Shown one piece after another: positions 21,328-45,023 of a stretch of DNA of 64,000 nt. The translations under genes were made by a program, and so were the position numbers. The notes under the pieces were generated by a model. It saw only the letters and a program-made list of their open reading frames with translations, was not told where the DNA came from and made no database searches. This DNA is from Voacanga thouarsii (taxonomy: Eukaryota > Streptophyta > Magnoliopsida > Gentianales > Apocynaceae), in assembly GCA_026120185.1 (NCBI GenBank), contig JANUWF010001497.1, positions 3,708,501 through 3,772,500 on the forward strand, given 5' to 3'. How positions within the stretch are numbered: the stretch's first letter is position 1; each line of letters starts with the position of its first letter.

Positions 21328-21370
<43 letters not shown>

Positions 21371-21375: not shown

Positions 21376-22812
21376 GACACATATGCTTATTGCACCATTA
21401 CATGACTAATTAGACTAGCGGGATGAGAATATTTATCTTTTAACTAATGCTAAATATAATTAAATTTTAATTTACCAACTTATTCTTGAATTTTAATTTA
21501 AACTTATTACAAATAAATTTGTCTTCCCTGATAAGATTTTCCTAACAAGCTATAATGGCAAATGACGTAACTTTCCCTGATCAAATTTAATGTAATGCAA
21601 AAAAAAAAAAAATATGATATAATTGCAAAAAGTTCTCGTTGATTAAGCAACCCAAATTATTAGGTGTGAATGAGATTATTAATATATGAAGGATGATTAG
21701 TGCAACGATCCTTTTGACCAAGATCTCAACCCTAATCTATATTTGTATTAATATTATAATTCACAACTAATTCAAGCTGCTCGTTTACTAAGTTTTCATA
21801 AGAGGCAGTTTGTAAATATGTTTTTTTTTTTTTAAATCTCCCCACACACATGATTTGATTTTGAAATATTACTTAAGGATACCATACTCCTTACATTTGA
21901 ATGCAATGAACCTTGTTTGTCCTTGTTGGGTCAATGTCACGGGTTGGTATTCATCACCCCATATTTCTGCCTATTGCATCGAAAACAATGGGCAAACCTG
22001 GATGATTCCTCAAGCTTCTTAAATGGCAGTTCCCAAGAAGGATTGCAAGCATAGCCTCGGCTTTCTATGCATGCTTGCAACTTCCATGGCCAATGGGGTA
22101 GAAAGCTTTATCTTTCATGGTTGGGAACATCCCAAAAATAGGAGGAAAGCAGAGTTGGATTTCAGACAAAGTTATATCGTTGCCTATTAATGAATCCAGC
22201 TTCCCAGTGAATCCAAAAGCTGCCCTAAAGTCTTGTTGCCGTCTCCAACAATTACATGAGCTTTTAGTTTTCGCAATTGGCCCTATCCATTCCAATTTGC
22301 CCCACTGGAAAATTGTGAAATGACATAAATGGGTATAATGTTTGTGATCCTTGGGTCAAATTTTCAAATATATTCACGAACTCTTGGGTCATTTTCAATT
22401 CATTTAAACAGAGGTATCTCTCCCACATTAATCCAAAATTAATCCTTTTATTGTCAGGATGAATGTTATTGTCAATTGATAGTGTATTTGGACGGGGAAA
22501 AAACAAAAAACACTGTTCTAGTACGTGTTTGTCAAAAAATGGAATTAATAAATAAATTTTATTTTTAAAATATTGTCATTTTTGTTACTCACTCCAAATA
22601 TATCATCAAGTTGATTTTTAGCCTTATAAAATATAAAATTATATTTACATATTTTTAAAACCCTGTTTCATGCACTTAATCCAAGTACACCATTCTTTCA
22701 ATAATAGATGCTTTTGGTGGGTCAAAATCTAAAGTTTGTTTTGTTTTCTACTTTTAATTTATTAAATGAACATTAAAAATATATAAAATAATCATAACTA
22801 ATATAAAAGCTC
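21376..22812. other. intergenic stretch without recognised gene
   Basis: AT-rich. At 21900-22500 the base composition is more balanced, with open frames on both strands (22117-22323 plus; 22065-22295 and 22264-22506 minus). Their peptides show no family I recognise. This could be a relic of a gene. The last 5 bp (22808-22812, AGCTC) are the left target duplication of the next element. Confidence 0.5.
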
Positions 22813-23151
22813 TGTTATAAAATTAGGGTAGTGTTAGAATAAAATCTTCACACTACACACTAATAAAACTCTAACTATTTTGCACAAGAATTTCTCTATT
22901 TCTCTTCTCTCACAATTTTCTCTAATCTTTCTTTCACAAAATAATGGTATATTACAAGCTTAAAGAATAGCTCTATTTATAGAGCTCTAATTAGTGGATT
23001 ACATCATGGCATACATCATCTTCTACTAATCTTAATTAGTGGTGTCTCCACTAAATGGTGGACATCCATAAAAATATTCTCTAATTATTCACATAAATTC
23101 ATAATTAGTGGAGCCTTCACTAATTAATGAAGATTCCAATAATTCATAACA
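22813..23151 (-). repeat. 3' LTR of element A (left copy)
   Basis: On the plus strand it begins TGTTATAAAATTAGGG and ends AATTCATAACA, the reverse of the sister LTRs. It is followed by CTCCCCCTTGGATGTCCAT, the reversed polypurine tract. By eye it differs from the right LTR by about ten substitutions and a 14 bp indel. Confidence 0.95.
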
Positions 23152-23276
23152 CTCCCCCTTGGATGTCCATCCATTACATAAAGAATATGCCTCGTTAAAA
23201 CCTTACTAGATAAAAACCCAGTGAGAAAAAAAATCTAGTGAAGGAAAAAGAGTACACTATTCTGTATGTCTGTTTA

Positions 23277-25474
23277 TTACTCCCCCTGATGAGATGATTC
23301 CTTTAAATCTTTAAACCGACGCATACCGATTTTATATCTCAACTTCTTAAATGTTGCAGTCGGTAAAGTCTTCTTGAAAATATCTGCGAGGTTATCACAT
23401 GACCGAATTTGTAGCACATCAATTTCACCTTTCTTCTGGAGTTTATGAGTAAAGAAGAATTTTGGTGAAATATGTTTTGTCCGATCTCCTTTAATATATC
23501 CTCCTCGTAATTGAGCTATGCAAGCCGCATTGTCTTCATAAAGAGGAGTTGGAATACCTTTGATTGATGATAATCCACAACTTTCTCGGATATAATGAAT
23601 CATGGATCTTAGCCATACACATTCTCGACTTGCTTCATGAATGGCTATAATTTCAAAGATGATTTGAAGAAGTAGTCGCTATAGATTGTTTCGTAGAACG
23701 CCATGATATAGCAAGATTTCCACATGTAAATAGATAGCCCGTTTGAGAACGTGCTTTATGTGGATCGATAAATAACCAAAGATCTCGCATAACCTATCAA
23801 TGTTGGACTGGTTTTATTTGAATAAAATAATCCGAGATCAATTGTACCTTGAGATATCGAAGGACTTGTTTAATTCCATTCCAATGTCGTCGTGTTGGTG
23901 AAGAACTAAATCTTGCTAATAAATTGACAAAGAAAAGCAATATCAGTGTCTTGTATTATTAGCAAGATACATCAATGCACCAATTGCACCGAGATATGGT
24001 ACTTCAGACCAAGGAGTTCTTCATCATTTTCTTGAGGTCTGAAAGGATCTTTATCCACATTTAATGATCTGGACGATCATTGGAATACTCAATGGATGTG
24101 CTTTGTCCATGTAAAATCTTTTAGCACTTTTGTCAGTATATGTTGATTGATGAATAAATGTTCCACTCTCCAAATGTTCAATTTGTAAACCAAGGCAAAA
24201 TTTGGTTTTACCAAAATCCTTGATTTCGAATTCTCTTTTTAAATAATCAATTGTTTCTTGGAGCTCTTCAGAGTTCCAATAAGATTAATATCATCAACAT
24301 ATATAGCTAATATCACAAATTTAGAACCAGATTTCTTAATAAAAACACATGGACATACCTGGTCATTTTTAAATCCCGCTTTCAATAAATATTCACTAAG
24401 ACGTATGAACCACATGCGCCCGCATTGCTTCAGTGCCATATAATGATTTTCGCAACTTGATGGAGTAATTTTCACGAGGATAATGTTTATATGCTTCAGG
24501 CATATGAAATCCTTCTGGGATTTTCATGTAAACATCATTTTCTAAATTTCCATACAAGTAAGCAAAGTGACAACATCTAATAGGCGCATATCTATCTTTT
24601 CATGTACCGCCAAACCGATAAGATATCTGAGTGTAATAGCATCAACAACAGGAGAATAAGTTTCATCATAATCAATACCTGGTCTTTGTGAAAAACCTTG
24701 GGCTACTAATCGCGCATTATATCGAACGATTTCACTCTTTTCATTGCACTTTCGCACAAATATCCATTTGTAGCCAACAGATTTTACACCTTCCGGTGTT
24801 CGGACTCGCAGTCCGAAGACTTCACGTTTTGTCAATGCATTTAACTCCGATTGAATCGCATCTTTCCATTGCAGCCAATCTTTTCTATGCCGACATTCAT
24901 CAACTGATATTGGTTCAGGATCATCATTATCCTGTGTAACATCAAGAGATATATTGTATGCAAATATATTATTAATAACAGTTTCTATCCGATTCCAACT
25001 TCTACCGGAAGTAGTATAATTGATAGAAATTTCAGTGATAGAAATTTCAGTGTTACTTTTATCAACTTCTGGTTCTTTGTCATCAGTTCTCTCTCGGTCT
25101 TTATCATTCTTTTCTTCAATATGATCTTCTGGATCAGTTAATCCTCTTTTCTTTCGAGGATTTTTATCTTTAGAACCAAGAGGTCGGCCACGCTTCTGGC
25201 GTGTTTTTGACTCAGCAGCTATAGGTATAATATTTTGTTCTACTGGAACTTCATTAGAATTGAGCATTTATAGCTGGCATATGCGATTTTGTTACTCTTT
25301 TAGAGTCAACAAAAGCGTCTGGCATTTGATTTGCAATACTTTACAAATGAATTATCTTTTGAACTTCAAGTTCACACACGCTTGTATGCGGATCAAGATA
25401 ATTTAATGATGTTGTCCAATCATGATCTTTCTTGTACTGTTTCTGTTCTCCCCCTAATTTAGGGAATAATGATT
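23277..25474 (-). pseudogene. copia pol 3' part of element A (end of integrase region, RT, RNase H)
   Basis: Minus-strand segments follow the sister element. 25267-24542 spans the basic linker (RQKRGRPLGSKDKNPRKKRG) and the RT N-terminus (KWIFVRK, then YNARLVAQGFSQRPGIDYDE). 24475-24239 carries the catalytic box (VILAIYVDDINLIG). 23603-23277 is the RNase H end (YEDNAACIAQL, then KHISPKFFFTH). Frameshifts separate them. Similarity to the sister starts abruptly at 25474, where the captured DNA begins. Confidence 0.9.
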
Positions 25475-25736
25475 TTACAAGAGAATAAGAAAAGAAATAA
25501 AAGAAAATGATGACAAGCAGGAAATGCCAAGAAAAATATCTCCTTTTTTTTTCACTCTTCCCTGCATCGACTTTTCATCTTCCTCTCTTGTCTTTTCTTC
25601 TCCTCTGACCCTCTACCTACCATCTACCTCTTCTTCTTCCTCATACGATATATATATATATATATATATATGTATCGATATATATCTCAGTTATCAGTCA
25701 TTAGTAAATATCAAAAACAAAAATCACAAAGCAGAT
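25475..25736 (+). promoter_or_regulatory. upstream DNA captured with the RKD gene (putative promoter/5' UTR)
   Basis: These 262 bp have no similarity to the sister copia element and run up to the RKD start codon. They contain a pyrimidine-rich part (25550-25640) and a (TA)n tract at 25649-25671. No defined TATA box or start site can be proven. It is inferred to be part of the original gene's 5' region. Confidence 0.6.
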
Positions 25737-25757
25737 ATGGAGACTCGTAATTCATTT

Positions 25758-27796
25758 TGATGGAAAACGCAGAACAGGGGAGCCATGGACGGGAAAAAAA
25801 CAGAGAAAAAAAAAATTAAACGCGAGTCATAAAGGCCATGCGGAAGCGTGAAGATCATACCTTTGCGTTCCTTAACCCTCCTAGGTTGCGTAAGAACATA
25901 TTGAATGGCTGGAATCGCCTCGCTTTGCACAGTTGAAGGAGCTTCCGGTTGAACACCCGCTAGCCTTCGACTTCGTCTTGTTTGCATTAACGCTTAGCTC
26001 TCCAGCTCTCGGGATATTCCTCAGCCTAACCTCTAGTCGGTGAACACTATGGTGAAGAGGAACGATCTCAAAACTCCTTAGTTCTTTCGCTATTGATTAG
26101 CAAAGAACAAGAGAAAAACAAGAAGAAGGAGAGAGACCTTGAGAGAGAGAGACCCACGTGAGGTGTGGCTTGGGAAAGGAAAAATTAGGGTTTTTTTTTT
26201 CCTTTTCAAAGAGTTGTTTATATTTAGCCTAAACTAGGTCTCTCAATCTCTGATAAACATCTCCTCGGGATTTCAAAATACCCGAATGTTATCCTGAAAA
26301 ACAGTTTGGCCTAACCTTAAACTCCTCTTAACCGTATCTGGAAAAAACCCTAAGGTCCAAGCTATTGGGCCAGATAAATATTTATTATTCTTCTTGGACT
26401 CAAAAGGCCCAAAATAATAAATATTAATTATTTATTTTCTGGGCTTACATAAGTAACCCAATAAATAATTAATGAGCCCAAATGAACCATAATAATTAAT
26501 CTTTAATTATTTATTTCTTGGGCCTATATAAATAACCCAATAAATAATTAAACATTAATTATTTCCCTAGTTTAAGCCCAGTGTTAATTTCTTAATTATT
26601 CATACTGGACCTAGGCCCCGAATAATTAATTAACCAAATAAACTAGATAATTAATTTCTCTCAACTCCTATTTTATTTATTTATTTATTTATTTTATTCC
26701 AACTTCAATAATAAATTAGACTTCCCGAATAAAATAAAATAAAATAAAATAAAATCCTCTTCAACCGAGACCAATTCCTCAACCCAAAAATAGTTAGGAC
26801 TTACTGGCTATCCCGAGGACCAAAAAGACACATCGCCTTGGTCGCTAAAATGACCAAAATACCCCCGCTATATAAATAGCTGTATTTTGCATTTTAAATA
26901 TTTCCTAATATCACCATAAGGAAATATTGACCCCAAGGACAATGCTGCGTTAGCAAAGTCTCCGACCTACAGTGTGAAATGACTAAAATACCCCTCTACA
27001 CATCGCCGTACATTTAGAGAGGAAGAAGTGTACTAACACCCCCTAAATGACATCTACCATCCTTAGGCTTCTAGTCCAATGATCCACGACTTCCCGGAGT
27101 GTTTCCGCTTTCCAAGGGAGCTACCCTAAAGCAAACATCCAAGTCATGTTTCCCAGTGGCCCTGGATAATTTAGACCATTCTGACAACCACAAGGGGCGA
27201 TATAGTGCGTAAACTATCTTGCATAAGTCCTGTCTTAACTAACTAGTCACACATACCCAACATGCAAGTATATTGGCCCTATGATAGAACCTCAACTACA
27301 AAGAAATCAAAGTATATGCTTCCAGCCTTCGCTAGACCACCAACTCATACTCAAGTCGTAGAGTACTAGTCCACGCTCGTAGCGGTAGTAGTCTAGGTTT
27401 CTACCATATAGTACTTTGAGAAACCACTACTACAGTCCCTGTTCTACGTATTCGAAATACGCTTATGTCATGAAGTGAGTGGACTACCCACCGGCTAAAG
27501 GTAAGCCATTCCCCATTTGGAATTCATAACATAATAACCTAAACATGATGAGGTTCCCGGCCTCATCAATAGGTTAAGAACAAATGTTTATGTGTTAAAT
27601 AACCCGTGATCCATACCTTACCGTGAAAGACCACCATTCACATGGATCACTTATTTAAACACAATGGGTCCGTTCCAAACGAAAATCGTGCACAAACAAA
27701 AAGTAAATTCACAAACAATTTCTGAAAATAAATTCTTTTATTAAATAATTCGATTTTACATCGTAAACCTAGTCTAAGAGGGCATACAATCCAACA
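25758..27796 (-). repeat. 3' LTR of element B (left copy)
   Basis: On the plus strand it starts TGATGGAAAACGCAG and ends CATACAATCCAACA. It pairs along its length with 33563-35598. Simple motifs inside include TTTAT repeats near 26672-26695 and AAAAT repeats near 26731-26755. The reversed polypurine tract ATCTCCCACTTG follows at 27797. Confidence 0.97.
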
Positions 27797-27812
27797 ATCT
27801 CCCACTTGCACT
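27797..27812 (-). other. polypurine tract of element B (reverse)
   Basis: On the minus strand it reads as a purine-rich AAGTGGGAGAT next to the LTR start TGTTGGATTG, in the standard plus-strand primer position. Confidence 0.75.
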
Positions 27813-27849
27813 CTAAGACTAGGTAAGTCCATAGGTGCCCACCCCTATG

Positions 27850-30690
27850 GCGTCTAAGTGTCTCTTGAAGACTCTCTCACCCAAAGGCTTGGTGAATGGG
27901 TCTCGCTAGATTGTTTTCTCGAGGTAATATGCTCCACCACGACTTCCCGTCTCTCGGATGAAATCCCGGATCGTGTGGTACTTCCTCTCGATGTGTTTCC
28001 CTTCTTGTGGTTCCGAGGCTCCTTAGATTGCGACACTCGCTCCAGTTGTTGTCGCAATACATCACAACCGGCCTATCCATATGTGGTACGACTCCAAGTT
28101 CTGAAAGAAACTTCCGGAGCCGCATCGCTTCCTTGGACGCCTCCGAAGCCGCCACATACTCGCCTTCCATGGTTGAGTCAGCAATACAAGATTGCTTGAT
28201 ACTCCTCCATGAAATTGCTCCTCCAGACAAGGTGAAGACATATCCACTAGTGGATTTTCTCTCATCCTTATCCGCCCGGAAGTCCGAGTCCGTGTATCCC
28301 GTAGGAACCAAATCATCACCTCAGTAAACCAAAGATATAATCTCTCGTTCCCTTGAGGTACTTGAGAATATGCTTTACAACTTGCCAATGAACCTCCCCC
28401 GGGTTTGACCGATATCTCGCTAACTAAGCCCACGGCAAAGCGTATATCCGGCCTAGTACACAAGCATGGCGTACATGAGACTTCCCACCGCCGAAGCGTA
28501 GGGAATCCTACTCATTCTCGTCCTTTTCTTCTTGAGACTTAGGACAACTCCTTCGAAGAAAATGACAACCCATGTCCGCAAGGGATTAGAGCTCCCTTGC
28601 ATGAGTCCATGCCGTACTTGGCCAAGCATCTTGTCAATGTATGTCGCTTGGGATAATCCTAACATTCTCTCGCTTCCTATTTCTAAGAAGCCTAATCCCG
28701 AGAATGTAGTCGGCTTCTCCCAAGTCCTTCATACCGAATTGACTAGACAGCCAAACCTTTGTAGATGACAATGTCCCTACATCATTTCCAATGAGTAGAA
28801 TGTCATCCACATACAGGACAAGAAAAACCACATTGATGCCTTCAAGTTTCCCGTACACGCATGGTTCATCTTCGTTTTGAATAAAACCATAAGACTTTAC
28901 AAGCCTCATCAAAACGAATGTTCCATGCTCTTGATGCCTCGCTTAAGTCCATAAATGGACTTCTTAAGCTTGCAAACCATGTGTTCCCCGGCCTTCAAGA
29001 ATGAAGCCTTCCTGTTGGGACATATAGATGTCTTCGCTAAGATGGCCATTCAAGAATGCCGTCTTGACATCCATTTGCCATATCTCGTAGTCATAGTGAC
29101 AAAGCGATGGCAAGGAGGATGCGAATGGATTTAAGCATGGCTACCGGGGAAAAGGTTTCCTCATAGTCGATACCCTCTTTCTGAGTATACCCTTTCGCCA
29201 CAAGCCTAGCTTTGAAGGTTTCCACCTTCCCATCCGCTCCTCTCTTCCTCTTGTATACCCACTTGCACCCAATGGGTTTTATCCCTTCAGTGAAGCTACA
29301 AGATCCCAAACCTGATTGAGGTACATAGACTCAATCTCGGCTTTCATTGCTTCATGCCACAGATTTGCATCGGCATCAGCAATAGCCTCCTCGTATCTAG
29401 CGGGGTCTTGTTCCTGATGGTCGGAAACCAGCTCAAAGGCTTCTCCATCCATCTATCCGGAACCCTAGACACTCTCCCACTACGACGAGGCTCCATTTGT
29501 ACAGTGCTCTTGAGGCCGTGCCTCTTCTTGTTCCAAAATCGGGTCAATAGAAGTTGATTCCATAGATAACTTCTCCCGCAGCTCCAACCTCGTTGAACCT
29601 TTAGTGGAAGTACTTTGATCATCTTCCAAGTATCTAGCATGGGTACCGACTAGTACCTTCCGCTCCTTAGGATGATAAAAGTAGCCTCCTTTTGTCCCTT
29701 TTGGATACCCAACAAAATAGCATAATTTCGATCTTGGTTCCAACTTGTCTCCCTTGATCAAGACATAAGTCGGACACCCCCAAATCCCGAGATGATTCGT
29801 ACTTGGCTTACGCCCACCCACATCTCATAGGGAGTCCTAGGTACCGACTTGGAAGGCACCAAGTTCGTAATATATGCCGCCGTTTCCAGTGGCATATCCC
29901 CAAAAGGACACCGGAAGAGTAGCATGAGACATCATGCTTCGGACCATTTCCATCAACGTCCCGTTCCTTCTCTCGCCTACTCCGTTTCGCCGGGGGTTCC
30001 CGCGCAGCAGAGCCGGGATACTATCCCATGATGTACCATGTAGTCCTTGAATTCACCTAGGAGGTACTCTCCACCACGATCCGATCGTAAGGTTTTGATT
30101 AATTTACCTCGTCCGACGCTCCACTTCACCCTTAAACTCTTTGAACTTGTCAAAAGAGTCGACTTGCGTCTCATCGTAAATGTAACCATACCTCGTACAA
30201 TCATCCGTGAACGTGATGAAGTACTCAAAACCTCCCCTAGCCGGTGTAGACAATGGACCGCACACATCGCTGTGAACAAGACTCAACACCTCCTCGCTCT
30301 ATCCGCCTTTGGTGTAAAAGACCTTTTGGTCATTTTTCCCATCAGCAGGATTCACACCGAGGCCAACTTTCCAATCTCAATGAGCCCAAAGGCCCATCAT
30401 GGATTAGCCTCTCGAATCCCGGTTGAGTTAATATGACCCAACCTCGTGTGCCAAAGGTATGAATCATTGATATTGGTCTTTCTCTTCTTAGTTAAAGGTT
30501 CGGACAGAGCGTTATTTGATTGGTTGTTAATAGGGTTTAAAAAGAACAAATTTCCATACATGTGCCCAAGACATAAAATTTCTCCATCTCTACCGATAGA
30601 AATACCGTAATGGAAAGATACGTAATATCCTTGATTAATAAGTTTTGCAACCGAAATCAAATTCTCGACGAAAACCAGGTACATATAAAA
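27850..30690 (-). pseudogene. copia pol of element B (integrase, RT, RNase H), frameshifted
   Basis: Reading down the minus strand: 30684-30397 is GAG-pre-integrase (SYLWHTRLGHIN). 30289-29821 is the integrase core (LVHSDVCGPLSTPARGG, then LRSDRGGEYL). 29640-29344 is the linker (RRSGRVSRVPDRW). 29309-28634 is RT ([31 protein letters not shown], then LVLYVDDILLIGND with the YVDD box). 28463-27853 is RNase H (TGYTDSDFRADKDERKSTSG, then MYCDNN). Multiple frame changes occur. Many sit at CAG/CTG-type positions when compared with relatives, so some may be sequence errors. Confidence 0.9.
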
Positions 30691-30699
30691 TGTCTTTTA

Positions 30700-31737
30700 A
30701 AACCACTATCTTATTACAATAAAAAATAAGATCCAAGCTCTCTCCCACCGCAAGGGCCCGCACTTGTGCTCCATTACCCACTCGAAGCCCATGTTCGCCC
30801 TTCTGAGTCTTCTTATCTTCCTAAACCCCCGCAAGGAGTTACGTATATGATCAGTGGCTCCCGAATCAACAATCCAAGTGGAAGTTGATCCTACCATTGA
30901 TATGGACTCTAGATAGTAAACATTACCTCGTGGGGTTTTTCTTGGCCTCGAAGATCCGGACACTCTTTTTCCAAGTGTCCCTTCTTTCCACACTTGAAGC
31001 ACTTGCCCTTTGGTTTGTCCTCGGGCTGGTTCTTGGTCGGGTCGCCGCATTCCCCTTCTTCCTCTTGAACTTTCCGGGCTTAGGCCCAGCTTCTTGAAGA
31101 AGAGGCCTTAGCAATCATGGCCTTAGACTGCGGCTTCATGACCTTCTCCGCCATCCGGAGCTCCTTCATCGGCTCAATCAAACTCATGTTCAACTTGTTC
31201 ATGTTATAGTTTAACTTGAACCGAGTGAAAGAGCTCCTGTAGAGATTCGAGAACCATGTCCACTTGGCTCTCGGGTCAATGACAGCTCCCTAAGATTTCT
31301 CGCCTCCTCGAAAGCAAGCAATCATCTTGAGCATATGCTCTCGGACCGATGCTCCCTCACCCATCTTAGTGTTTACAATTGTTCAAAGAGCCTCCTCGCC
31401 TTGCGGGCCGGCTCTTGTCCGCGAACATAGTTGCCAACGATTGACTTATGTCATATGCGTAAGCCATGTGCTCGTGTTTTGACCGGAGCACATTAGACAT
31501 GGAAGCTAACATATAGCAACGTGCCATTTCGTCAGCCTTTCTTCCATGCCTTTTCAGCCTCTCGCTCTTCAACGGTGGAACCTTCCCCGATAACAGTAGG
31601 TGTTTCGTAAAGGACATACTTATACTCCTACCGTGAGTATTATGTCCAGGTTCCTTTTCCAAATTCACATAGTTTGGACCCGTTAACTTATTCTCCCCGA
31701 GAATAACGGCCAATGGACTAAAAGAACCTCCCACCAT
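30700..31737 (-). pseudogene. copia gag and protease start of element B, frameshifted
   Basis: It starts at 31737 with MVGGSFSPLAVILGENKLTG, the typical start of this copia gag type. KADEMARCYMLASMSNVL follows, then a zinc-knuckle region near 30960-31000 that is out of frame. The protease active-site segment STWIVDSGATDHI lies at about 30850-30890. The DSG triad is kept. The frame changes at least three times. Confidence 0.85.
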
Positions 31738-33547
31738 TTCTGAAAATCGAAAATAAAAGAAAGAAATTAGTTTGTGAAAACAAAATGAAATTTGTGCACC
31801 GAAAATAATTTGCTCTTAGGAAAACCGACATAGCTTCTTGGGAAGATTAACAGCTTCCTAAGCTAAGTGTATTAACCACCACAAATTAATTTCCCTTCTA
31901 GGTAATGGTCTAGAGAATAACTCCATCGTGGGATGGCCGTTTCCTCTCATTTCCTATGGACATACCTCGCACTATAACCTCCAACGTGGGCCGGCCGATC
32001 ATAGTACGTGCCCCGGTTATTAATTACATCCTTCCATTAGATCTAGATCCTTGTGGTATCCCCATCCTATACGGGTTCACTCCCAGTGGTGACGCGAGGG
32101 GATCCACGATCTCTAATGAGGACCGTGATGGAAGCCGTGGGGCCGTTGGAACCCCTCTCCCACTTAGTCTTTTAAAATAAAGGTTTTCTGGAAAATATCC
32201 TTTTGAAAATTCCATTAAGTTTTTCTTAACTCAAAAATAAAATATCTAAGTCCAATAAAATCTCTATGTCAAGGCTTATATCCTTTGAGAGATTTCCTCC
32301 ATGGACTAATTTTATATAAGTTAAAACTTAATGATTTCAAAAATTTTCCAATTAAAACTTTCTAGAGACTTTGGTCTCAAGTTTATTTGACAAAATCATT
32401 TTTCTAGTCCAAAACAAAACAAAATGGCTCTCCATTTTAATTTACAAAAATATCTAAATCCAATATATTTTCTATGTCAATGATTAAATCCTTTGAGAAA
32501 ATATTTAAGGATTAATTTTTGTACCAATTAAAATAACCATTTAGTTTTTAAAGAAAAATATTTTTTCTTGCCGAAACAAAAAGTTCCCAAAGACTTTGGT
32601 CTTTGAGAAAAGCACACATAGGTACATAAAAAAAATAGCTTGCTAGAAAACAATAAACGTTTTCATGCTTTTCTATTTTTTAAACCTAAGTGCCCAAATA
32701 ATAGAATTAAACACATTAATTAATTAATTAATGATCTTGTTTAATCCTAAAATCCCTTACTAATATTTTTCATGCAAATATATTCCAAGAATATAAATAT
32801 TGCAAAAATATTAACTTCGCCTAGTATGGGACCCAAAAAAAAAATAAAAAAAATTGCCAAAAAAATGGCTGGCGGTCCACTGCACCGGCCGCACAGGATC
32901 CGCACCAGAATGGCCTGCGGTCCACCGCAACCACAATGCACCGCGCCGCACCAGATCGCACGCCGCCACGACCCGTGGACTTCGCCCGCGCTCGCGACCC
33001 GCGCCCGGTTCTCCTCTCGTCGCCGACTCGCGATCCAGCTCCGCGAGCTGCCCTGGCTGGATCTCCTCTGACCCGCGCGCGAACCCGAAAATCAAACGAA
33101 TTCAATTGCAAAATTTGCAATTGAATTCGGCTCAAATCACCTCCCAATTGGCTCGGCTTCGCAGCTCTAGAAGCACGGCTCCACTCACAGAACAGAAGCG
33201 GCTCGGCTCGGCTCCACGCGGCGGCTTATGAACAGTGTCATCTTCTTCGTTTTTCACCGCGCGAATTTGCAGAGCATTTTTTTTCGATTTTTTCTGTCTT
33301 CTTTGACTTCTTTGGACATTTTTACTTATAAAAACTCATCCAAAACATAACCACAACCGCCTATACCCATTAAAATTGGGTTTACACGATTAAAACATCA
33401 AAGCCAAAAATTACAGTATGCTCCTATGCTTCAAACGGTGAAGCTTACATCAAGCCTATCCCATACCAAAACAGCGAAGGATCATAGGTATAATCATCTT
33501 CTCCATTTTATTAACTACCATGCTCCCTATATTGATCACAACCAATG
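31738..33547 (-). other. untranslated leader of element B
   Basis: About 1.8 kb lies between the primer site and gag. The part at 31960-32560 is AT-rich with a recurring AAGACTTTGGTCT-like motif. The part at 32870-33230 is strongly GC-rich. Open frames in the GC-rich part on both strands are arginine/alanine/proline-rich and have no recognised domain. It probably holds RNA packaging or translation signals, but none can be shown. Confidence 0.7.
33097..33129. repeat. 33 bp near-perfect palindrome in the leader of element B
   Basis: Arms CGAATTCAATTGCAAA and TTTGCAATTGAATTCG (16 bp each) are separated by one A. The arms pair without mismatch. It sits at the right edge of the GC-rich block. Confidence 0.9.
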
Positions 33548-33559
33548 GCTCTGATACCA
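33548..33559 (-). other. primer binding site of element B (initiator Met tRNA type)
   Basis: On the minus strand it reads TGGTATCAGAGC, complementary to the 3' end of plant initiator methionine tRNA, and lies three bases inside the 5' LTR. Confidence 0.9.
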
Positions 33560-33562
33560 CTT

Positions 33563-35598
33563 TGATGGAAAACGCAGAACAGGGGAGCCATGGACGGGAA
33601 AAAAACAGAGAAAAAAAAAAATTAAACGAGAGCCATAAAGGCCATGCGGAAGCGTGAAGATCATACCTTTGCGTTCCTTAACCCTCCTAGGTTGCGTAGG
33701 AACAAATTGAATGGCTGGAATCGCCTCGCTTTGCACAGTTGAAGGAGCTTCCGGTTGAACACCCGCTAGCCTTCGACTTCGTCTTGTTTGCATTAACGCT
33801 TAGCTCTCCAGCTCTCGGGATATTCCTCAGCCTAACCTCTAGTCGGTGAACACTATGGTGAAGAGGAACGATCTCAAAACTCCTTAGTTCTTTCGCTATT
33901 GATTAGCAAAGAACAAGAGAAAAACAAGAAGAAGGAGAGAGACCTTGAGAGAGAGAGACCCACGTGAGGTGTGGCTTGGGAAAGGAAAAATTAGGATTTT
34001 TTTTTCTTTTCAAAGAGTTGTTTATATTTAGCCTAAACTAGGTCTCTCAATCTCTGATAAACATCTCCCCGGGATTTCAAAATACCCGGATGTTATCCTG
34101 AGAAACAGTTTGGCCTAACCTTAAACTCCTCTTAACCGTATTTGGAAAAACCCTAAGGTCCAAGCTATTGGGCCGTATAAATATTTATTATTCTTCTTGG
34201 ACTCAAAAGGCCCAAAATAATAAATATTAATTATTTATTTTCTGGGCTTACATAAGTAACCCAATAAATAATTAATGAGCCCAAATGAACCATAATAATT
34301 AATCTTTAATTATTTATTTCTTGGGCCTATATAAATAACCCAATAAATAATTAAACATTAATTATTTCCCCTAGTTTAAGCCTAGGTTAATTTCTTAATT
34401 ATTCATACTGGACCTAGGCTCTGAATAATTAATTAACCAAATAAACTAGATAATTAATTTCTCTCAACTCCTATTTTATTTATTTATTTATTTATTTTAT
34501 TCTAGTTCAATAATAAATTAGACTTCCTGAATAAAATAAAATAAAATAAAATAAAATAAAATCCTCTTCAACTGAGACCAATTCCTCAATCCAAAAATAG
34601 TTAGGACTTACGGGCTATCCCGAGGATCAAAAAGACACATCGCCTTGGCTGCTAAAATGACCAAAATACCCCTGCTATATAAATAGCTGTATTTTGCATT
34701 TTAAATATTTCCTAATATCACCATAAGGAAATATTGACCCCAAGGACAATGCTGCGTTAGCAAAGTCTCCGACCTACAGGTGAAATGACTAAAATACCCC
34801 TCTACACATCGCCGTACATTTAGAGAGGAAGAAGTGTACTAACACCCCCTAAATGACATCTACCATCCTTAGGCTTCTAGTCCAATGATCCACGACTTCC
34901 TGGAGTGTTTCCGCTTTCCAAGGGAGCTACCCTAAAGCAAACATCCAAGTCATGTTTCCCAGGGCCCTGGATAATTTAGACCATTTGGACAACCACAAGG
35001 GGCGATATAGTGCAGAAACTATCTTGCATAAGTCTGTCTTAACTAACTAGTCACACATACCCAACATGCAAGTATATTGGCCCTATGATAGAACCTCAAC
35101 TACAACAAATCAAAGTATATGCTTCCAGCCTTCGCTAGACCACCAACTCATACTCAAGTCATAGAGTACTAGTCCACGCTGTAGCGGTAGTAGTCTAGGT
35201 TTCTACCATATAATACTTTGAGAAACCACTACTACAGGTCCTGTTCTACGTATTCGAAATACGCTTATGTCATGAAGTGAGTAGACTACCCACTAGCTAA
35301 AGGTAAGCCATTCCCCATTTGGAATTCATAACATAATAACCTAAACATGATGAGGTTCCCAGTCTCATTAATAGGTTAAGAACAAATGTTTATGTGCTAA
35401 ATAACCCGTGATCCATACCTTACTGTGAAAGACCACCATTCACATGGATCACTTATTTAAACACAATGGGTCTGTTCCAAACGAAAATCGTGCACAAACA
35501 AAAAGTAAATTCACAAACAATTTCTGAAAATAAATTCTTTTATTAAATAATTCGATTTTACATCAGAAACCTAGTCTAAGAGGGCATACAATCCAACA
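33563..35598 (-). repeat. 5' LTR of element B (right copy)
   Basis: It pairs with 25758-27796. Differences include ordinary C/T changes in CCG context and a set of unusual multi-base differences at CAG/CTG sites. On the plus strand it ends CCAACA, directly followed by the CATTT target duplication and RKD coding sequence. Confidence 0.97.
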
Positions 35599-35651
35599 CA
35601 TTTGAGACATGGTCAAATTTTGACTCGGTTTCTGCAGCAGATGTTGATGTA

Positions 35652-35803
35652 TTTTCCTTTCCAAACCAACCACTTCTGCCTAATTCGAACACAGAAGATT
35701 TTGATATGTTTTTCTTTCCAAACCAACCGCTTCTGCCTAATTCGAACGCAGAAGATTTTGATATGTTTTCCTTTCCAAACCAACCACTTCCTCCTAATTT
35801 CAG
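35652..35803 (+). repeat. 57 bp coding tandem repeat in RKD exon 1 (2.7 copies)
   Basis: Units at 35652-35708, 35709-35765 and 35766-35803 (partial) encode 19-residue repeats containing FPNQPLLPNSN and EDFDM. The unit length is a multiple of three and the frame is kept. The third copy runs into the exon 1 donor site. Confidence 0.9.
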
Positions 35804-36989
35804 GTGAGATACCTTTGAGGGCTTCCATTTGTTTTTAGTATGCTTGATAATGAAATTAAACTTTATTTTGGTTTGTTTTTTATGTAAATCAGTGGAAGTT
35901 TTGAACATACTGCTTTGGACCAAGTTGATCTGCCCTTACAAGAGACTGCTTTTGATACTGTTCCTCTTGATGCTATTCCTTTGAATAAGGATATGCTTGT
36001 GCATGATCCTTTCTACTCTCCAATGGATTTTGAACAAAGCCAGAATATGTTTCCAGGTTATTATACATTTAAACATGAATTTTGAATGGTATTACCTTTA
36101 CTGATATTATTTTCTTTTTCTAGGAGAAATAATGAGTGGTCTTAGCAACGAAGTCGGAGTAAGTACTCATGAAATGCATAATATCGAAGTTCAAGATATT
36201 ATTGTAGACAAAATTCCTGGGGAGAAGAAGATGATTAAGAGGCAGAGAGAGAAGAAAGGCAATAACTCCCAGACACTATCAAGAGAAACAATTTCGCAGT
36301 ACTTTTACCTACCAATCAAGAGCGCAGCCAAAGAACTGAATATTGGCATAACCCGTCTCAAGAAAAGATGTAGGGAGTTAGGAATTCGTCGATGGTCTCA
36401 CAGGAAATTGGTGAGCTTGGAGACCATAATCAAGAATGTTCAAGTTCTCTCTCATACATACTTATAATTTGCAAGTATGAAACTATGAAAGATTTATAAG
36501 TAAATAATCGATTATATCACTTCGATTTACAGGAGATGCAAAATAAAGAGGAAGGAGGACATATGGTTGAGAAGAAGTTGAAAGAAGCCATTGCGATACT
36601 GGAATGTGAAAAACAGTTGGTGGAAGAAAGTCCTAATACGCAGTTAGAGGACCAAACACAGAAATTGAGACAAGCATACTTCAAGGCCAAATATAATAAG
36701 AAATTTAATTATAATAAACTTAAGGAGATTATAAAATCTCAAGACTCATTTCGCAGTAATTTTACGGCTAATTCTGCTGCTAGTCTCGATGCTGGCTCAA
36801 ATGGGAAAGAAAAGGAGGAGGATGTCAAAAAAGATGAGCTGAAGTCCATAATTACTAATTGTTTGTCTTCCTCTAATGTAAATATTGAAAAAGAACAATT
36901 ACAAACCTTCATCTTACATTTGTCAGCTCAATTACAAAAGAGCAACTATAAGCATGTATCCTCAAGTTCATATGAACGCTAGTGATATG

Positions 36990-36995
36990 AATAAA
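36990..36995 (+). promoter_or_regulatory. polyadenylation-like signal after the RKD stop
   Basis: AATAAA starts eight bases after the TAG stop codon. It lies in captured DNA that continues to 37039, so some 3' flank of the gene appears to have been taken along. Confidence 0.5.
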
Positions 36996-37039
36996 AGATG
37001 TGATGCTTATTATTAATGGAAATATCTTTTTCACTTATT

Positions 37040-37648
37040 ATCTTTTATGTTCCACTTCAGGTGGCCAGTATTTCTCTGTAATAAGGGAAATATCGAGTGT
37101 GTCCATGACCATAACCACGGCCACTGCCACAACTACGACTATAACGATGGCTTCTGCTGGAGCCAACAGCATTCACTTTTGAGAGTGCTGTTGAGCCAGT
37201 TCATCTGGCTTCATGATTTCTCAATAATAACTCATGTTAAAGCTGTCAATTTTGGATACCCTTTTTCTCGATATTGTTATTGTAGAACATGAAAAGTGGA
37301 GAATGTCTTCTCCAATATAACTTCATCAGTAACTTTTTCTCCGTAAAATTTTTAACTAAGATGTAGTTTTATACATCATGGAATTCACGGTTTTACAATC
37401 TTGCAACTTCAGGTGCAACCATTCATACCGTACAGTGGGTAGTACGACCATCTTCAGGTGGTCAAATCTTTCTTTTTATCTACATGACATATGGATCTCC
37501 TTTTTTTTAGCATTTAGATGCATTTCTGTATGACATATAAATTTTTTTTCCAGAAATATCAAGGGTTACAAATTTGAATTTAGCGAGATCAATAAATGCG
37601 TACCTGTCTTCTGGTTTTAATTACGGCAGAGACTCGTGCTGATAACGT
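37040..37648 (-). pseudogene. gag remnant and primer region of element A
   Basis: Reversed, this matches the sister element from its 5' LTR end through gag to about 41007, including the GRGRG-type and zinc-knuckle approach (RGYG, then ARYFP in the sister). It lacks the gag start codon and has an internal deletion of about 110 bp. The primer region reads CGTTATCAGCACGAG after the LTR on the minus strand. Similarity ends exactly at 37040, where captured DNA starts. Confidence 0.85.
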
Positions 37649-38001
37649 GTTATAAAATTAGGGTAGTGTTAGAATAAAATCTTCACACTACACACTAAAA
37701 AAACTCTAACTATTTTGCACAAGAATTTCTCTATTTCTCTTCTCTCACAATTTTCTCTAATTTTTCTTTCACTAATCTTTCTTTCACAAAATAATGGTAT
37801 ATTACAAGTTTAGAGAATAGCTCTATTTATAGAGCTCTAATTAGTGGATTACATCATGGCATACATCATCTTCCACTAATCTTAATTAGTAGTGTCTCCA
37901 CTAAATGGTGGACATCCATAAAAATTTTCTCTAATTATTCACATAAATCCATAATTAGTGGAGCCTCCACTAATTAATGGAGATTCCAATAATTCATAAC
38001 A
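37649..38001 (-). repeat. 5' LTR of element A (right copy)
   Basis: On the plus strand it begins TGTTATAAAATTAGGG and ends CATAACA, then AGCTC, matching the left target duplication. It is 353 bp against 339 bp on the left, owing to an extra CACTAATCTTTCTTT-type unit. Confidence 0.95.
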
Positions 38002-38006
38002 AGCTC

Positions 38007-38577: not shown

Positions 38578-38916
38578 TGTTATGAATTATTGGAATCTCC
38601 ATTAATTAGTGGAGGCTCCACTAATTATGGATTTATGTGAATTATTAGAGAAGATTTTTATGGATGTCCACCATTTAGTGGAGACACCACTAATTGAGAT
38701 TAGTGGAAGATGATGTATGTCATGATGTATTCCACTAATTAGAGCTCTATAAATAGAGCTATTCTCTAAGCTTGTAATACACCATCATTTTGTGAAAGAA
38801 AGATTAGAGAAAATTGTGAGAGAAGAGAAAGAGAGAAATTCTTGTACAAAATAATTAGAGTTTTATTAGTGTGTAGTGTGAAGATTTTATTCTGACACTA
38901 CCCTAATTTTATAACA
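38578..38916 (+). repeat. solo LTR of the element A/C copia family
   Basis: This 339 bp copy starts TGTTATGAATTATTGG and ends TTATAACA. It is flanked by CCATT direct repeats (38573-38577 and 38917-38921). No internal sequence is attached on either side, so it is a solo LTR left after LTR-LTR recombination. It contains the family's internal inverted repeat AATTAGTGGAG/CTCCACTAATT. Confidence 0.95.
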
Positions 38917-39775: not shown

Positions 39776-40142
39776 TGTTATGAATTATTGGAATCTCCAT
39801 TAATTAGTGGAGGCTCCACTAATTATGGATTTATGTGAATTATTAGAAGATTTTTATGGATGTCCACCATTTAGTGGAGACACCACTAATTGAGATTAGT
39901 GGAAGATGATGTATGTCATGATGTATTCCACTAATTAGAGCTCTATAAATAGAGCTATTCTCTAAGCTTGTAATACACCATCATTTTGTGAAAGAAAGAT
40001 TAGTGAAAGAAAGATTGGAGAAAGAATTGTGAGAGAAAGAAAGAGAGAAGTTTGAAGAGAAATTCTTGTGCAAAGAATAGTTAGAATTTTCTTAGTGTGT
40101 AGTGTGTAGATTTTATTCTAACACTACCCTAATTTTATAACA
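39776..40142 (+). repeat. 5' LTR of element C
   Basis: It starts TGTTATGAATTATTGG and ends TTATAACA. A TATAAATAGAGC box-like sequence near 39944-39956 is a plausible promoter TATA region. The primer region CGTTATCGCACGAG follows and lacks the AG present in element A. Confidence 0.95.
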
Positions 40143-40242
40143 CGTTATCGCACGAGTCTCTACCGTTATTAAAGCCGTAAGACAAAGCACGAGTCTCTCG
40201 CCGTTATTAAAGCCGTAAGACAGTACGCATTTATTGATCTCT

Positions 40243-41340
40243 ATGGCTAATCTCGCTAAACTCGAATTTGTAGCCCTTGATATTTCCGGAAAAAATTATA
40301 TGTCATGGGTTCTCGATGCGTAAATGCATCTAAATGCCGAAGGCCTTAGTGAAACTATTCAAGCACATAATAGTGCATCTCGCACAACACAAGGCTAAAG
40401 CTTTGATTTTTATTCGTCGTCATCTCGATGAAAATTTGAAAATGGAATATCTTACCGAAAAAGATCCATATGGTCTCGTGGGTAAATTTAAAAGAAAGAT
40501 TTGACCACCCGAAGATGGTCGTACTACCTACCGCACGCGTATGAATGGTTGCACCCGAGGTTGCAAGATTTTAAAACCGTGAATGAATATAGCTCCGCAA
40601 TGTATAAAATTACATCTCAATTAAAATTATGCGGAGAAAAAGTGATCGATGAAGATATGTTGGAGAAGACATTCTCCACCTTTCATGCCTCGAATATTGT
40701 CCCGCAAAGAACAATATCGAGAAAAGGGGTATACAAAATTTACGTATTTAATTATCGCCCTCCTCATTGCAGAGAAAAATAATGAGTTATTATTGAGAAA
40801 TCATGAAGCCGCACCAACCGGCTCTACAAAGACTCCTGTAAGTGAATGTCGTTGGCTCCAGCAGAAGCCATCGTTATAGTCGTGGTCGTGGCCGTGGCCG
40901 TGGCCGTGGTCGTGGTTATGGTCGTAGTCACGCTCGATATTTCCCTTATCACAATTATAATCAAACCGTGAGAAATACCGGCCACCCGAAGTGGAACAGA
41001 AAAGATCAAAAGGGAAAAGAAAAAGAAATTGAAGAAAAGCATGAGGATATATGTTATAGATGTGGCATGAAAGGTCATTGGTCACGAAACCGTCGTACGG
41101 CTAAGCATTTAGTTGAATTGTATCAAGCTTCATTGAAAAATAAAAATGTGGAAGCAAATTTTTCTCAACATCCAATAAATAATGTTGAGGATGACGATAG
41201 TGATCCCGAAGATCTTAATATCAATATTACCCATATGGATGTATCGGATTTTTTTGAACACCCGTACGGTAGGATAGACCATTTAATTGGTGATGGCAAG
41301 TTGTCCAAAAGAACTAAAGCCTCACCCCGATATTTTTGTA
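40243..41340 (+). pseudogene. copia gag of element C, frameshifted
   Basis: It starts at ATG 40243 with MANLAKLEFVALDISGKNYM, a typical gag start of this family, then stops early at a frameshift. Later open parts include 40501-40879 (LQDFKTVNEYSSAMYKITSQ) and 40842-41363. The latter has an arginine/glycine-rich SRGRGRGRGRGRGYGRS segment and a zinc knuckle CYRCGMKGHWSRNRR in which the last Cys is Arg. It would not make a working capsid protein as written. Confidence 0.9.
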
Positions 41341-41399
41341 TTTTCATTTTCATTCTATTCTAATAATATTTACGTTTACATATATATATTTGTGTTCGG

Positions 41400-44300
41400 A
41401 TGGTCTGTTATTAATGATGATGTATGCATTATTGATAGTGGAACTACACACACCATACTAAAAAATGAGAAATATTTTTCTCGATCTCAAAATGGGAGAA
41501 ATAAATATTTATACAATAAACGGTAGTGCAAATGTAATTGAGGGCTCCTGAAGAGCTAGTATATTGTTGCCTAAAGGAACAACAATTATTATTGATAAGG
41601 CACTATTTTCCTCAAAATCCGTAAGAAATTTATTGAGTTTTAAAGATATCCGCAGAAATGGGTATCATGTTGAAACAAATGAGGAAAATGGGATTGAGCA
41701 TCTTTTTATTACTCAAATGCATTTGGGTAAGAAATCGGTATTAGAAAAACTGCCGTCTTTTTCTACCGGTCTATATTTTGTAAAAATACGTACAATTGAA
41801 ATTCATCATCTAGTAAACCGTAAGTTTACTGATCCTATTACTTTTAGCATTTGGCATGACCGGTTGGGTCATCCTGGATCTACCATGATGAGAAGAATCA
41901 TTGAGAATACACATGGTCATCCTTTAAAAAATAAAAGGATATTAACATCAGAAAAATTCGCATGTACCGTATGTTCCCTAGGAAAATTAATTGTTAAACC
42001 ATCACTAGCAAAAGTAGGAGCCGAAAGTCCTACATTTCTCGAACGGATTCACGGAGATATTTGTGGACCTATTGATCCACCATGTGGACCGTTCAAATAT
42101 TTTATGGTCTTAATTGATGCATCATCCCGATGGTCACATGTATGTTTATTATCTACTCGCAACCCGGCGTTTGCGAGATTACTTGCTCAAATAATTAAAT
42201 TACGAGCACAATTTCCTGACCATCACATTAAAAATATCCGTTTGGATAATGTCGGTGAATTTTCATCACATGCTTTTGATGCATATTGCATGTCAATTGG
42301 GATTAATGTTGAACATCCCGTAGCTCATGTTCACACACGTAATGGTCTTGCCGAATCTTTGATTAAACGATTACAATTAATTGCTAGACCATTATTAATG
42401 AAAACAAATCTCCCAACATCCGCCTCGGGGACATGCTATTCTACATGCCGCAACACTTGTACGTATAAGACCAGCTTAGTTATCATAAATTCTCTCCTTT
42501 GCAATTGGCTTTTGGGTCGAACCAAATATTGCTCATTTAAGAATTTTTGGGTGTGTCAGTATATATTCCAATTGCACCAAACCAACGTACAAAGATGGGT
42601 CCTCAAAGAAGAAAGGGGATATACGTTGGATATGATTCTCCCTCTATTATCGTGTATGTTGAACCCCCGACAGAGATGTATTCACAAAGAAGATTTGCCG
42701 ATTGTCATTTTGATGAATCATTATTCCCTAAATTAGGGGAGAACCAAAACAAAGATAAAAAGGATCTTGCTTGGACAACATCATTAAATTATCTTGATCC
42801 GCGCACAAGCGCATGTGAACTTGAAGTTCAAAAGATAATTCATTTGCAAAGCATTGCAAATCAAATGCCGTACGCTTTTGTTGACTCCGTAAGAGTTACA
42901 AAATCGCATATTCCAGCCTATAAATGCTCCTATTCGAATTGAAGTTCCAGCAGAACAAAATATTATACCTATAGTCGCCGAGTCAAAAACACGCCGTAAG
43001 CGTGGCCGACCTCTTGGTTCTAAAGATAAAAATCCTCGAAAGAAAAGAGGATTAAATGATCCGAAGATCATATTGAAGAAAAGAATGATAAAGACCAAGA
43101 GAGAACCGATGACAAAGAACCGTAAGTTGATGAAAGTAACACCGAAATTTCTATCAATTATACCACTTCCGGTAGAAGTTGGAATCGGATAGAAACCGTT
43201 ATTGATAATATATTTGCATACAATATATCTCTTGATGTTACACAGATAATGATGATCCCGAACCAATATCGCTTGATGAATGTCGGCATAGAAAAGATTG
43301 GCCGCAATGGAAAGATGCGATTCAATCGGAGTTAAATGCACCGGCAAAACGTGAAGTCTTCGGACTCGCAGTCCGAACACCGTAAGGTATAAAACCCGTT
43401 GGCTACAAATGGATATTTGTGCGAAAGCGCAATGAAAAGAGTGAAATCGTTCGATATAAAGCGCGATTAGTAGCCCAAGGTTTTTCACAAAGACCAGGTA
43501 TTGATTATGATGAAACTTATTCTCCTGTTGTTGATGCTATTACACTCCGATATCTTATCGCTTTGGCAAGACATGAAAAGATAGATATGCGCCTATTAGA
43601 TGTTGTCACCGCTTACTTGTATGGAAATTTAGAAAATGATGTTTACATGAAAATCCCCGAAGGATTTCATATGCCCGAAGCATATAAACATTATCCTCGT
43701 GAAAATTACTCCATCAAGTTGCGTAAATCATTATATGGCCTCGAAGCAACTGGGCGCATGTGGTTCACACGTCTTAGTGAATATTTATTGAAAGCGGGAT
43801 TTAAAAATGACCAGGTATGTCCATGCGTTTTTATTAAGAAATCTGGTTCTAAATTTGTGATATTAGCTATATATGTTGATGATATTAATCTTATTGGAAC
43901 TCCCGAAGAGCTCCAAGAAACAATTGATTATTTAAAAAGAGAATTCGAAATCAAGGATTTTGGTAAAACCAAATTTTGCCTTGGTTTACAAATTGAACAT
44001 TTGGAGAGTGGAACATTTATTCATCAATCAACATATACAAAGAAAAGTGCTAAAAAGATTTTACATGGACAAAGCACATCCATTGAGTATTCCAATGATC
44101 GTCCGATCATTAAATGTGGATAAAGATCCTTTCCGACCTCAAGAAAATGATGAAGAACTCCTTGGTCCCGAAGTACCATATCTCAAAGGCAATTGGTGCA
44201 TTGATGTATCTTGCTAATAACACACGGCCCGATATTGCTTTCGCTGTCAATTTATTAGCAAGATTTAGTTCTTCACCAACACGACGACATTGGAATGGAA

Positions 44301-44899
44301 TTAAACAAGTCCTTCGATATCTCCAAGGTACAATTGATCTCGGATTATTTTATTCAAATAAAACCAATCCAACATTGATAGGTTATGCGTATGTCGGTTA
44401 TTTATCCGATCCACATAAAGCACGTTCTCAAACGGGCTATCTATTTACATGTGGAAATACCGCTATATCATGGCGTTTCTACGAAACAATCTATAGCAAG
44501 CCTACTTCTTCAAATCATGCCGAAATTATAGCCATTCATGAAGCAAGTCGAGAATGTGTATGGCTAAGATCCATGATTCATTATATCCGAGAAAGTTGTG
44601 GATTATCATCAATCAAAGGTATTCCAACTCCTCTTTATGAAGACAATGCAGCTTGCATAGCTCAATTACGAGGAGGATATATTAAAGGAGATCGGACAAA
44701 ACATATTTCACCAAAATTCTTCTTTACTCATGAACTCCGTAAGAAATGTGAAATTGATGTGCTACAAATTCGGTCATGTGACAACCTCGCAGATATTTTC
44801 ACGAAGACTTTACCGACCGCAACATTTGAAAAGTTGAGATATAAAATCGGTATGCGTCGGTTTAAAGATTTAAAGGAATCATCTCATCGTGGGGAGTAA
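41400..44899 (+). pseudogene. copia pol of element C (protease, integrase, RT, RNase H)
   Basis: The protease active site is in CIIDSGTTHTIL (about 41427-41462). 41564-42736 holds GAG-pre-integrase (SIWHDRLGHPGS, then CTVCSLGK) and the integrase core with the three acidic positions (HGDICGP, then RLDNVGEF, then NGLAESL). 43419-44123 is RT (ARLVAQGFSQRPGIDYDE, then AIYVDDINLIG). 44114-44899 is RNase H (YEDNAACIAQLRGGYIKG, then DNLADIFTKTLPT) ending at TAA 44897-44899. Frames change near 42550, 42940-43420 and 44115. Most catalytic residues are kept, so it decayed recently or carries sequence errors. Confidence 0.92.
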
Positions 44900-45007
44900 T
44901 AAACATACATATAGAATAGTGTACTCTTTTTCCTTCACTAGATTTTTTTTCCCACTGGGTTTTTATCTAGTAAGGTTTTAACGAGGCATATTCTTTATGT
45001 ATGGATG

Positions 45008-45023
45008 GACATCCAAGGGGGAG
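45008..45023 (+). other. polypurine tract of element C
   Basis: GACATCCAAGGGGGAG immediately precedes the LTR start TGTTATG. The same tract, reversed, is next to the left LTR of element A. Confidence 0.85.

Follow-up and report, generated by a model that had tools for sequence, protein, structure and literature searches.

How does a host-type gene come to lie, introns and all, between the LTRs of a retrotransposon? The question is raised by element A, a Copia LTR retrotransposon on the minus strand at 22813-38001 of the window (the whole 64,000-nucleotide stretch of Voacanga thouarsii DNA analysed here), within which an RWP-RK gene, a cargo unexpected in transposons of this type, is found (Table 1). 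The two LTRs of the element, which begin with TG and end with CA, align over 354 columns at 93.2% identity, with 9 mismatches and 15 gap positions, and 5 of the 336 LTR sites compared carry bases private to this pair. They are bordered by AGCTC target duplications; were all bases equally frequent, the probability of 5 bp agreeing at two such points would be about 1/1024, before the pairing of the LTRs is counted. Element A together with its duplications is a single integration, and the Copia frame put forward in the preliminary description stands.

Table 1. Positions of element A, its parts and the comparators in the window
Feature	Position	Strand	Basis or remark
Target duplication AGCTC of element A, left	22808..22812	.	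sequence context
Element A, 3' LTR	22813..23151	-	LTR alignment
Element A, integrase end, RT and RNase H	23152..25474	-	BLAST to C, Pfam; 11 or more reading-frame breaks within 23277-25474
Support interval of the A-C divergence change	25182..25259	.	best 25255
Captured DNA, left part	25475..25757	+	262 bp upstream of gene, ATG 25737, first 21 nt of exon 1
Target duplication CATTT of nested element, left	25753..25757	.	sequence context
Nested Copia element	25758..35598	-	LTRs 25758-27796 and 33563-35598; splits gene at codon 7
Target duplication CATTT of nested element, right	35599..35603	.	sequence context
Captured DNA, right part	35604..37033	+	remaining exon 1, three introns, exons to stop 36982, AATAAA 36990-36995
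Element A, decayed gag	37034..37647	-	alignment to C; at least 9 nt shorter than C at eight places
Element A, 5' LTR	37648..38001	-	LTR alignment
Target duplication AGCTC of element A, right	38002..38006	.	sequence context
Solo LTR, family of element A	38578..38916	+	comparator; CCATT both sides
Sister element C	39776..45405	+	comparator; ATTTA both sides

Compared with the sister element C, element A has lost 1,701 bp (C 41015-42715, including the integrase) and holds in their place an insert of 1,713 bp, in agreement with the earlier estimate that some 1.7 kb had been replaced by foreign DNA of similar length. The left junction is where it had been placed, at 25474/25475, whereas the right one, formerly set at 37039/37040, lies about 6 nt further left, at approximately 37033/37034, the gag match to C ending at about 37028-37034. 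Apart from its own internal tandem repeat, the inserted DNA (25475-25757 and 35604 to about 37033) matched nothing in the window by BLAST (length 100 bp or more, E 1e-10). On the strand opposite to that of element A it encodes an RWP-RK gene of four exons (25737-25757 joined to 35604-35803, 35893-36056, 36124-36443 and 36533-36982), amounting to 384 codons with zero internal stops. The introns (35804-35892, 36057-36123 and 36444-36532; 89, 67 and 89 nt) are all of the GT-AG type, and the product matches the Pfam RWP-RK domain (PF02042) at 70 bits (E 1.5e-19, cut-off 29.3); the antisense gene with start, three introns, stop and AATAAA that had been read by eye is thus confirmed. RWPxRK is the motif of RWP-RK proteins; the gene in element A reads RWSHRK instead. 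We provisionally call the gene RKD-like from its resemblance to RKD genes. CitRKD1 of citrus is described as having six exons (PMC6090715), as against four here. Searches with the RWP-RK protein confirmed no relative among viral contigs, as was also the case for the RT part of C, and found none among solved structures, where matches appeared only at E of 0.68 or above.

Intron loss is listed as a hallmark of LTR retroduplication (PMC5664825), and this mark of a copy made from spliced mRNA is absent, the three GT-AG introns being kept; nor was a poly(A) remnant seen by eye past the AATAAA at the 3' end of the gene. The ends of the insert are purine-rich and, as judged by eye only, show no clear terminal repeat of the kind sought for transduplication by DNA transposons such as Pack-MULEs or Helitrons. 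A second Copia element is nested within the gene, and the data support its being younger than element A. As assembled, the gene copy is broken, its seventh codon being split and its motif altered, so that a mobile, active RKD gene is not supported for this copy.

Element A retains an RVT_2 match (69.6 bits) without an integrase core. In C the integrase precedes RT, as in Copia: the segment 41564-42733 contains a gag_pre-integrase domain (37.7 bits, cut-off 28.4) and an rve match just below its cut-off (32.0 versus 32.6 bits), ahead of the part to which the RVT_2 match of element A aligns. The two elements are joined by one BLAST match of 91.9% (A 22815-25474 to C 45403-42716), while the gag side matches C 40306-41018. 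With the equivalent of C 41015-42715 gone, gag shortened and at least 18 frame breaks, element A is no self-sufficient gag-pol element. The proposal that conserved size reflects packaging limits is not supported, since element A without the nested element measures 5,343 bp as against about 5,630 bp for C, and its gag is itself shortened.

The differences between A and C could not be taken at face value. C retains only 8 of 43 CAG/CTG triplets of A, compared with 102 of 111 CAT/ATG triplets, and carries base-calling artefacts. By the frame count used for A, C also has at least five breaks in the integrase-RT-RNase H part and at least six in gag, which makes the breaks partly a sequencing artefact. 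Divergence was accordingly computed with CAG/CTG sites masked (lenient mask) or with CG sites masked as well (strict mask), C being the single full comparator on which the test for a mosaic rests.

So treated, element A looks like a mosaic. The masked divergence between A and C amounts to 7-8% to either side of the gene and falls to 1.4% beyond approximately 25255 (49 of 625 versus 24 of 1,671 sites; none of 2,000 permutations equalled this). Within the LTRs, U3 (4 of 190 sites differing) sides with the fresh part, whereas R-U5 (9 of 131) sides with the divergent one, a split that fits the prediction from strand transfer. As judged by alignment to C, gag and RT of element A have decayed unequally: gag is shorter by at least 9 nt at eight places and the integrase-RT-RNase H part at none (P 3e-5 if placement is random). 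Of these eight, one falls within a simple repeat, where C may instead have grown, and an additional, leading difference of 36 nt in gag resembles a duplication in C. No break interrupts the frame of the gene over 1,152 nt, whereas integrase-RT-RNase H has at least 11 in 2,198 nt (P 0.0097) and gag at least 7 in 567 nt (P 0.0019). Constraint as the reason for the low divergence of RT is disfavoured, since under the lenient mask the differences in gag and RT-RNase H are shared evenly among the three codon positions, as expected of dead sequence, although the few fourfold sites of the integrase-RT linker show no rise (1 of 56, with 3 of 133 in RT-RNase H and 2 of 25 in gag). The direction of transitions was abandoned as a means of polarising the mosaic: it points to decay on the side of A under the lenient mask (27 versus 9 in gag) and is neutral under the strict one (10 versus 6 in gag, 4 versus 4 in the integrase end, 8 versus 9 in RT-RNase H).

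These patterns favour, short of proof, an origin by reverse transcription in which the enzyme switched templates, one a dead gene-bearing RNA and the other the RNA of a fresh element. A Copia element would have acquired the host RWP-RK gene in the orientation opposite to its own transcription. The RNA of the element would then include the complement of the gene, so that the introns would be invisible to the spliceosome and be retained through reverse transcription; as had been argued before, and as we uphold, introns can survive an RNA cycle only in the antisense orientation, which is the one found. The gene-bearing RNA would have come from an already dead copy with decayed gag and been packaged with proteins made elsewhere (trans-mobilisation). 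A template switch by reverse transcriptase would have joined it to a fresh RNA supplying RT, RNase H and U3, and the product would have integrated at the AGCTC site, the second Copia element landing in codon 7 later. That gag and RT have decayed to different degrees lends some further support to a passage through RNA. We infer this passage, the trans-mobilisation and the assignment of A rather than C as the recombinant; the full chain is put forward tentatively, with somewhat less than an even chance of being correct.

Alternatively, the gene may have been captured at the DNA level after a fresh Copia element had inserted, a break in its protease/integrase region being mended with a 1.7-kb copy of genomic DNA that held the gene, through templated repair or ectopic gene conversion, with orientation and introns incidental. 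DNA copying retains introns in any orientation, loss and gain are nearly equal, and a donor already holding a gag relic beside the gene would account for the decayed gag. This route is possible but doubtful, for repair alone leaves unexplained both the decay of gag relative to RT and the change in divergence some 220 bp past the insert, unless an old element bearing the gene served as donor; nor does repair account for the U3/R-U5 pattern, though this is a weak piece of evidence. Either capture route would be compatible with C being the recombinant, its 5' half stemming from a divergent subfamily and gag of A having decayed in an already non-autonomous lineage. The branch of C may indeed account for the 5' divergence in part or in whole, since in R-U5, where C carries extra repeats, the solo LTR agrees with A against C (1 of 134 sites being specific to A); the unraised linker sites point the same way. 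We nevertheless consider this unlikely, as it is gag of A that is shortened at eight places while that of C is still recognisable by eye (in two pieces of it Pfam found no domain, only a sub-threshold zf-CCHC), and the lack of a third-codon-position excess speaks against two selected subfamilies. The well-preserved frame of the gene would also agree with an assembly join, or with a native RWP-RK locus that happens to sit between unrelated Copia fragments. Such an explanation would require both the matching 5-bp duplications and the LTR pair with shared private bases to be coincidence; chance flanks around a separate native locus are disfavoured on these grounds, and we hold this explanation highly improbable.

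Gene transduction by plant LTR elements, known from Bs1 of maize and from surveys in rice, sorghum and pepper, likewise places a host gene between LTRs and target duplications in an element without coding capacity, but the captured gene is described as usually element-sense (PMC7264820), whereas the gene in element A is antisense and has retained its three introns. A parallel in these respects is offered by Penelope in bdelloid rotifers, where an intron-containing host gene lies between element repeats with target duplications and an antisense template is proposed to account for the kept introns (PMC3846280); Penelope, however, is not an LTR element of the Copia type. Other LTR elements are reported to have antisense reading frames, located between pol and the 3' LTR and shared by most copies of a family; in that account, no similar gene sequences occur outside the elements (PMC7264820). 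Element A resembles them in orientation but carries a host-type gene between gag and RT. Complex LTR elements of Triticeae, attributed to template switching, are daughters in which two parental elements had become joined prior to integration (PMC1950507), as proposed for element A, which additionally includes a host gene. Among the literature matches listed (titles and abstract openings, with few subscription journals), no retrotransposon with an RWP-RK or RKD gene was found.

LTR retrotransposons are known for producing intronless copies of genes; a regulatory gene carried by such an element in antisense and with its introns would reveal a way of moving whole genes. Surveys that require intron loss can miss such cases: in one of them, as described, unclear multi-exon cases without parental sequences were excluded, and 1,398 (rice) to 3,898 (potato) genes were counted inside LTR structures (PMC5664825). 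Similar cases may sit unrecognised among these. RKD genes are described as regulators of the egg-cell expression programme, and in citrus an upstream MITE accompanies CitRKD1 expression and polyembryony (PMC6090715); a promoter insertion is reported from mango (PMC10709545). The break in the present copy, as assembled, limits functional claims. It may be speculated, though we think it distinctly less likely than the template-switch origin itself, that the RWP-RK gene was taken up with its introns long ago, stayed intact, through selection or as a still working host gene, while gag and the integrase end decayed around it, and was then remobilised in antisense by RNA recombination with a fresh element. 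Were that so, LTR retrotransposons could spread complete, intron-bearing developmental regulators.

Element A, a minus-strand Copia retrotransposon, reads from its 5′ end as gag, about 1.4 kb of foreign DNA, a nested element, 283 bp of foreign DNA and a stretch comprising the integrase end, RT and RNase H. C is its plus-strand sister (39776–45405), in which gag-pre-integrase scores above the Pfam cut-off and the integrase core slightly under it; its segment 41015–42715 is absent from A and is replaced there by 1,713 bp of unrelated DNA. The A LTRs align over 354 columns with nine mismatches and 15 gap positions. When the solo LTR and the two LTRs of C serve as comparison, five of 336 LTR sites are private to both A LTRs, and the pair therefore represents a single insertion.

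Features of the window, with positions and strands
Feature	Position	Strand	Remarks
Further Copia sequence	6525–10209		77.7% identity to nested-element interior (28736–32404); probably a piece of a further Copia element
BED zinc-finger reading frame	17203–17595	minus	23.5 bits; perhaps a hAT-type remnant
tRNA-Phe gene	21303–21375	minus	
Element A	22813–38001	minus	LTR pair, AGCTC flanks
A LTRs	22813–23151, 37648–38001	minus	TG start, CA end; AGCTC on outer sides
A integrase end, RT, RNase H	25474–23152	minus	match C
RWP-RK gene	start 25737, stop at 36982	plus	antisense to A; 384 codons, four exons
Nested Copia element	25758–35598	minus	LTRs ~2.04 kb, CATTT duplications
Repeat in exon 1 of RWP-RK gene	35635–35799		57-bp tandem repeat, 89.8%
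AATAAA	36990–36995	plus	~38 nt short of insert end
A gag	37647–37034	minus	5′-most internal part of A; matches C
Solo LTR	38578–38916		CCATT duplications; same family
Reading frame	48532–49218	minus	by eye, presumably resembles ribosomal protein S2
PTR2/POT transporter reading frame	54966–55742		120 bits

The gene carried by A has three GT-AG introns, which measure 89, 67 and 89 nt, and its product contains an RWP-RK domain (70 bits, Pfam) with the motif RWSHRK, the canonical form in RWP-RK proteins being RWPxRK. We take its RKD label to express resemblance only. The encoded protein contains three copies of FPNQPL. Citrus CitRKD1 has six exons (PMC6090715), as against four here, and completeness was therefore judged by start, stop and splice sites only. 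The nested element interrupts the gene at codon 7. Its LTRs differ by 21 substitutions outside CAG/CTG contexts over ~2,020 columns (a rounded denominator that still includes those contexts), as compared with 9/339 for A (P = 0.03), which agrees with a sequence-based order in which A would have inserted first and the nested element second.

CAG/CTG is scarce and CCG abundant in C and in the nested interior (28001–34000), while in 60001–64000 CAG/CTG is depleted and CCG is not enriched. CAG/CTG is not depleted in the integrase–RT part of A (43 observed versus 46 expected) or in the gene region 35599–37039 (34 versus 28). C retains 8/43 of the CAG/CTG but 102/111 of the CAT/ATG triplets of A integrase–RT–RNase H, and the most frequent change is CTG in A to CCG in C (11 cases), opposite to cytosine decay. 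We infer that the loss is probably due to nanopore base-calling errors at methylated CHG sites, and the assembly would thus probably carry an imprint of methylation. Divergence between A and C was accordingly computed with CAG/CTG contexts masked (lenient mask), or CG as well (strict mask).

The internal divergence of A, measured against C as single comparator, is uneven. Over 870 bases of C, A gag falls short of C by at least 9 nt in eight places, as against none in 2.3 kb of integrase–RT–RNase H (P = 3e-5); one of the eight, in a simple repeat, could reflect growth in C, and an extra 36-nt difference at the gag start, resembling a duplication in C, was left out. Under the strict mask, substitutions number 26/333 in gag, 14/196 in the integrase end (25178–25474) and 20/1446 in RT–RNase H. 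The best single change point, A 25255 (support 25182–25259), separates 49/625 from 24/1671, which 0/2000 permutations reach; without R-U5 the contrast is 40/494 versus 24/1671. Differences are even across codon positions under the lenient mask in gag (12/118, 16/122, 14/123), the linker (9/180, 11/172, 11/178) and RT–RNase H (11/424, 8/423, 13/409). Frame breaks number 0/1152 nt in the RWP-RK gene, at least 11/2198 in A integrase–RT–RNase H and at least 7/567 in A gag (gene versus RT alone, P = 0.0097; versus both, P = 0.0019). The matching stretches of C hold at least five and at least six, respectively, probably caused by artefacts, so that part of the breaks in A may be artefactual as well.

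Since gag and RT have been equally long at the current site, the damage to gag, judged from sequence, predates the current insertion, and A therefore looks like the product of an old and a fresh parent. The old parent would have supplied gag together with the RWP-RK gene, and perhaps R-U5 and the integrase end, and the fresh one RT, RNase H and U3. Divergence from C is 4/190 in U3, which groups with the fresh part of A, and 9/131 in R-U5, which groups with the divergent part. Such a pattern is expected if minus-strand synthesis begins on a fresh RNA and then switches, within one particle, to an old RNA bearing the gene. A switch near 25255 would mean that old Copia sequence flanked the gene on both sides before the move, and thus an earlier capture. 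Alternatively, if the switch fell on the edge of the insert, antisense read-through of a host RWP-RK gene could have been driven by a gag relic directly downstream of it, and a single illegitimate switch would be enough.

Other results run against two parents. In R-U5 the solo LTR agrees with A against C (A-specific sites, 1/134), so the 5′ divergence may belong to the branch of C. The U3 of the solo LTR is close to that of the C 5′ LTR (1/204), while its R-U5 does not share the additional repeats seen in C; the two regions thus assort separately in the family. With the lenient mask, transition polarity favours decay in A (gag 27 versus 9, integrase end 11 versus 6, RT–RNase H 21 versus 10), but it is neutral with the strict one (10 versus 6, 4 versus 4, 8 versus 9). 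Fourfold sites (lenient mask) differ at 2/25 in gag, and those of the linker show no rise (1/56 versus 3/133 in RT–RNase H). Much of the pattern of A could also arise by ectopic gene conversion, with an old element bearing the gene as donor. The integrity of the gene also fits poorly with a long stay in a dead element; selection, or a position as a host gene beside the relic, would remove the difficulty.

Genes transduced into LTR elements are mostly in sense orientation according to one review (PMC7264820), whereas that of A is antisense. Retroduplication is diagnosed by intron loss in PMC5664825, which nevertheless counts thousands of genes within LTR structures; the gene in A, in contrast, keeps its introns. 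A second review (PMC13317346) states that no 5′ transduction has been reported in plants, and the words intron and antisense are absent from the main text of a rice and sorghum survey (PMC3726574). Penelope elements are said in PMC3846280 to differ from all other retrotransposons by dispersing intron-containing genes, an antisense template being suggested as the cause of intron retention. As far as these papers go, a Copia element with an antisense, intron-bearing gene represents a new form of gene capture.
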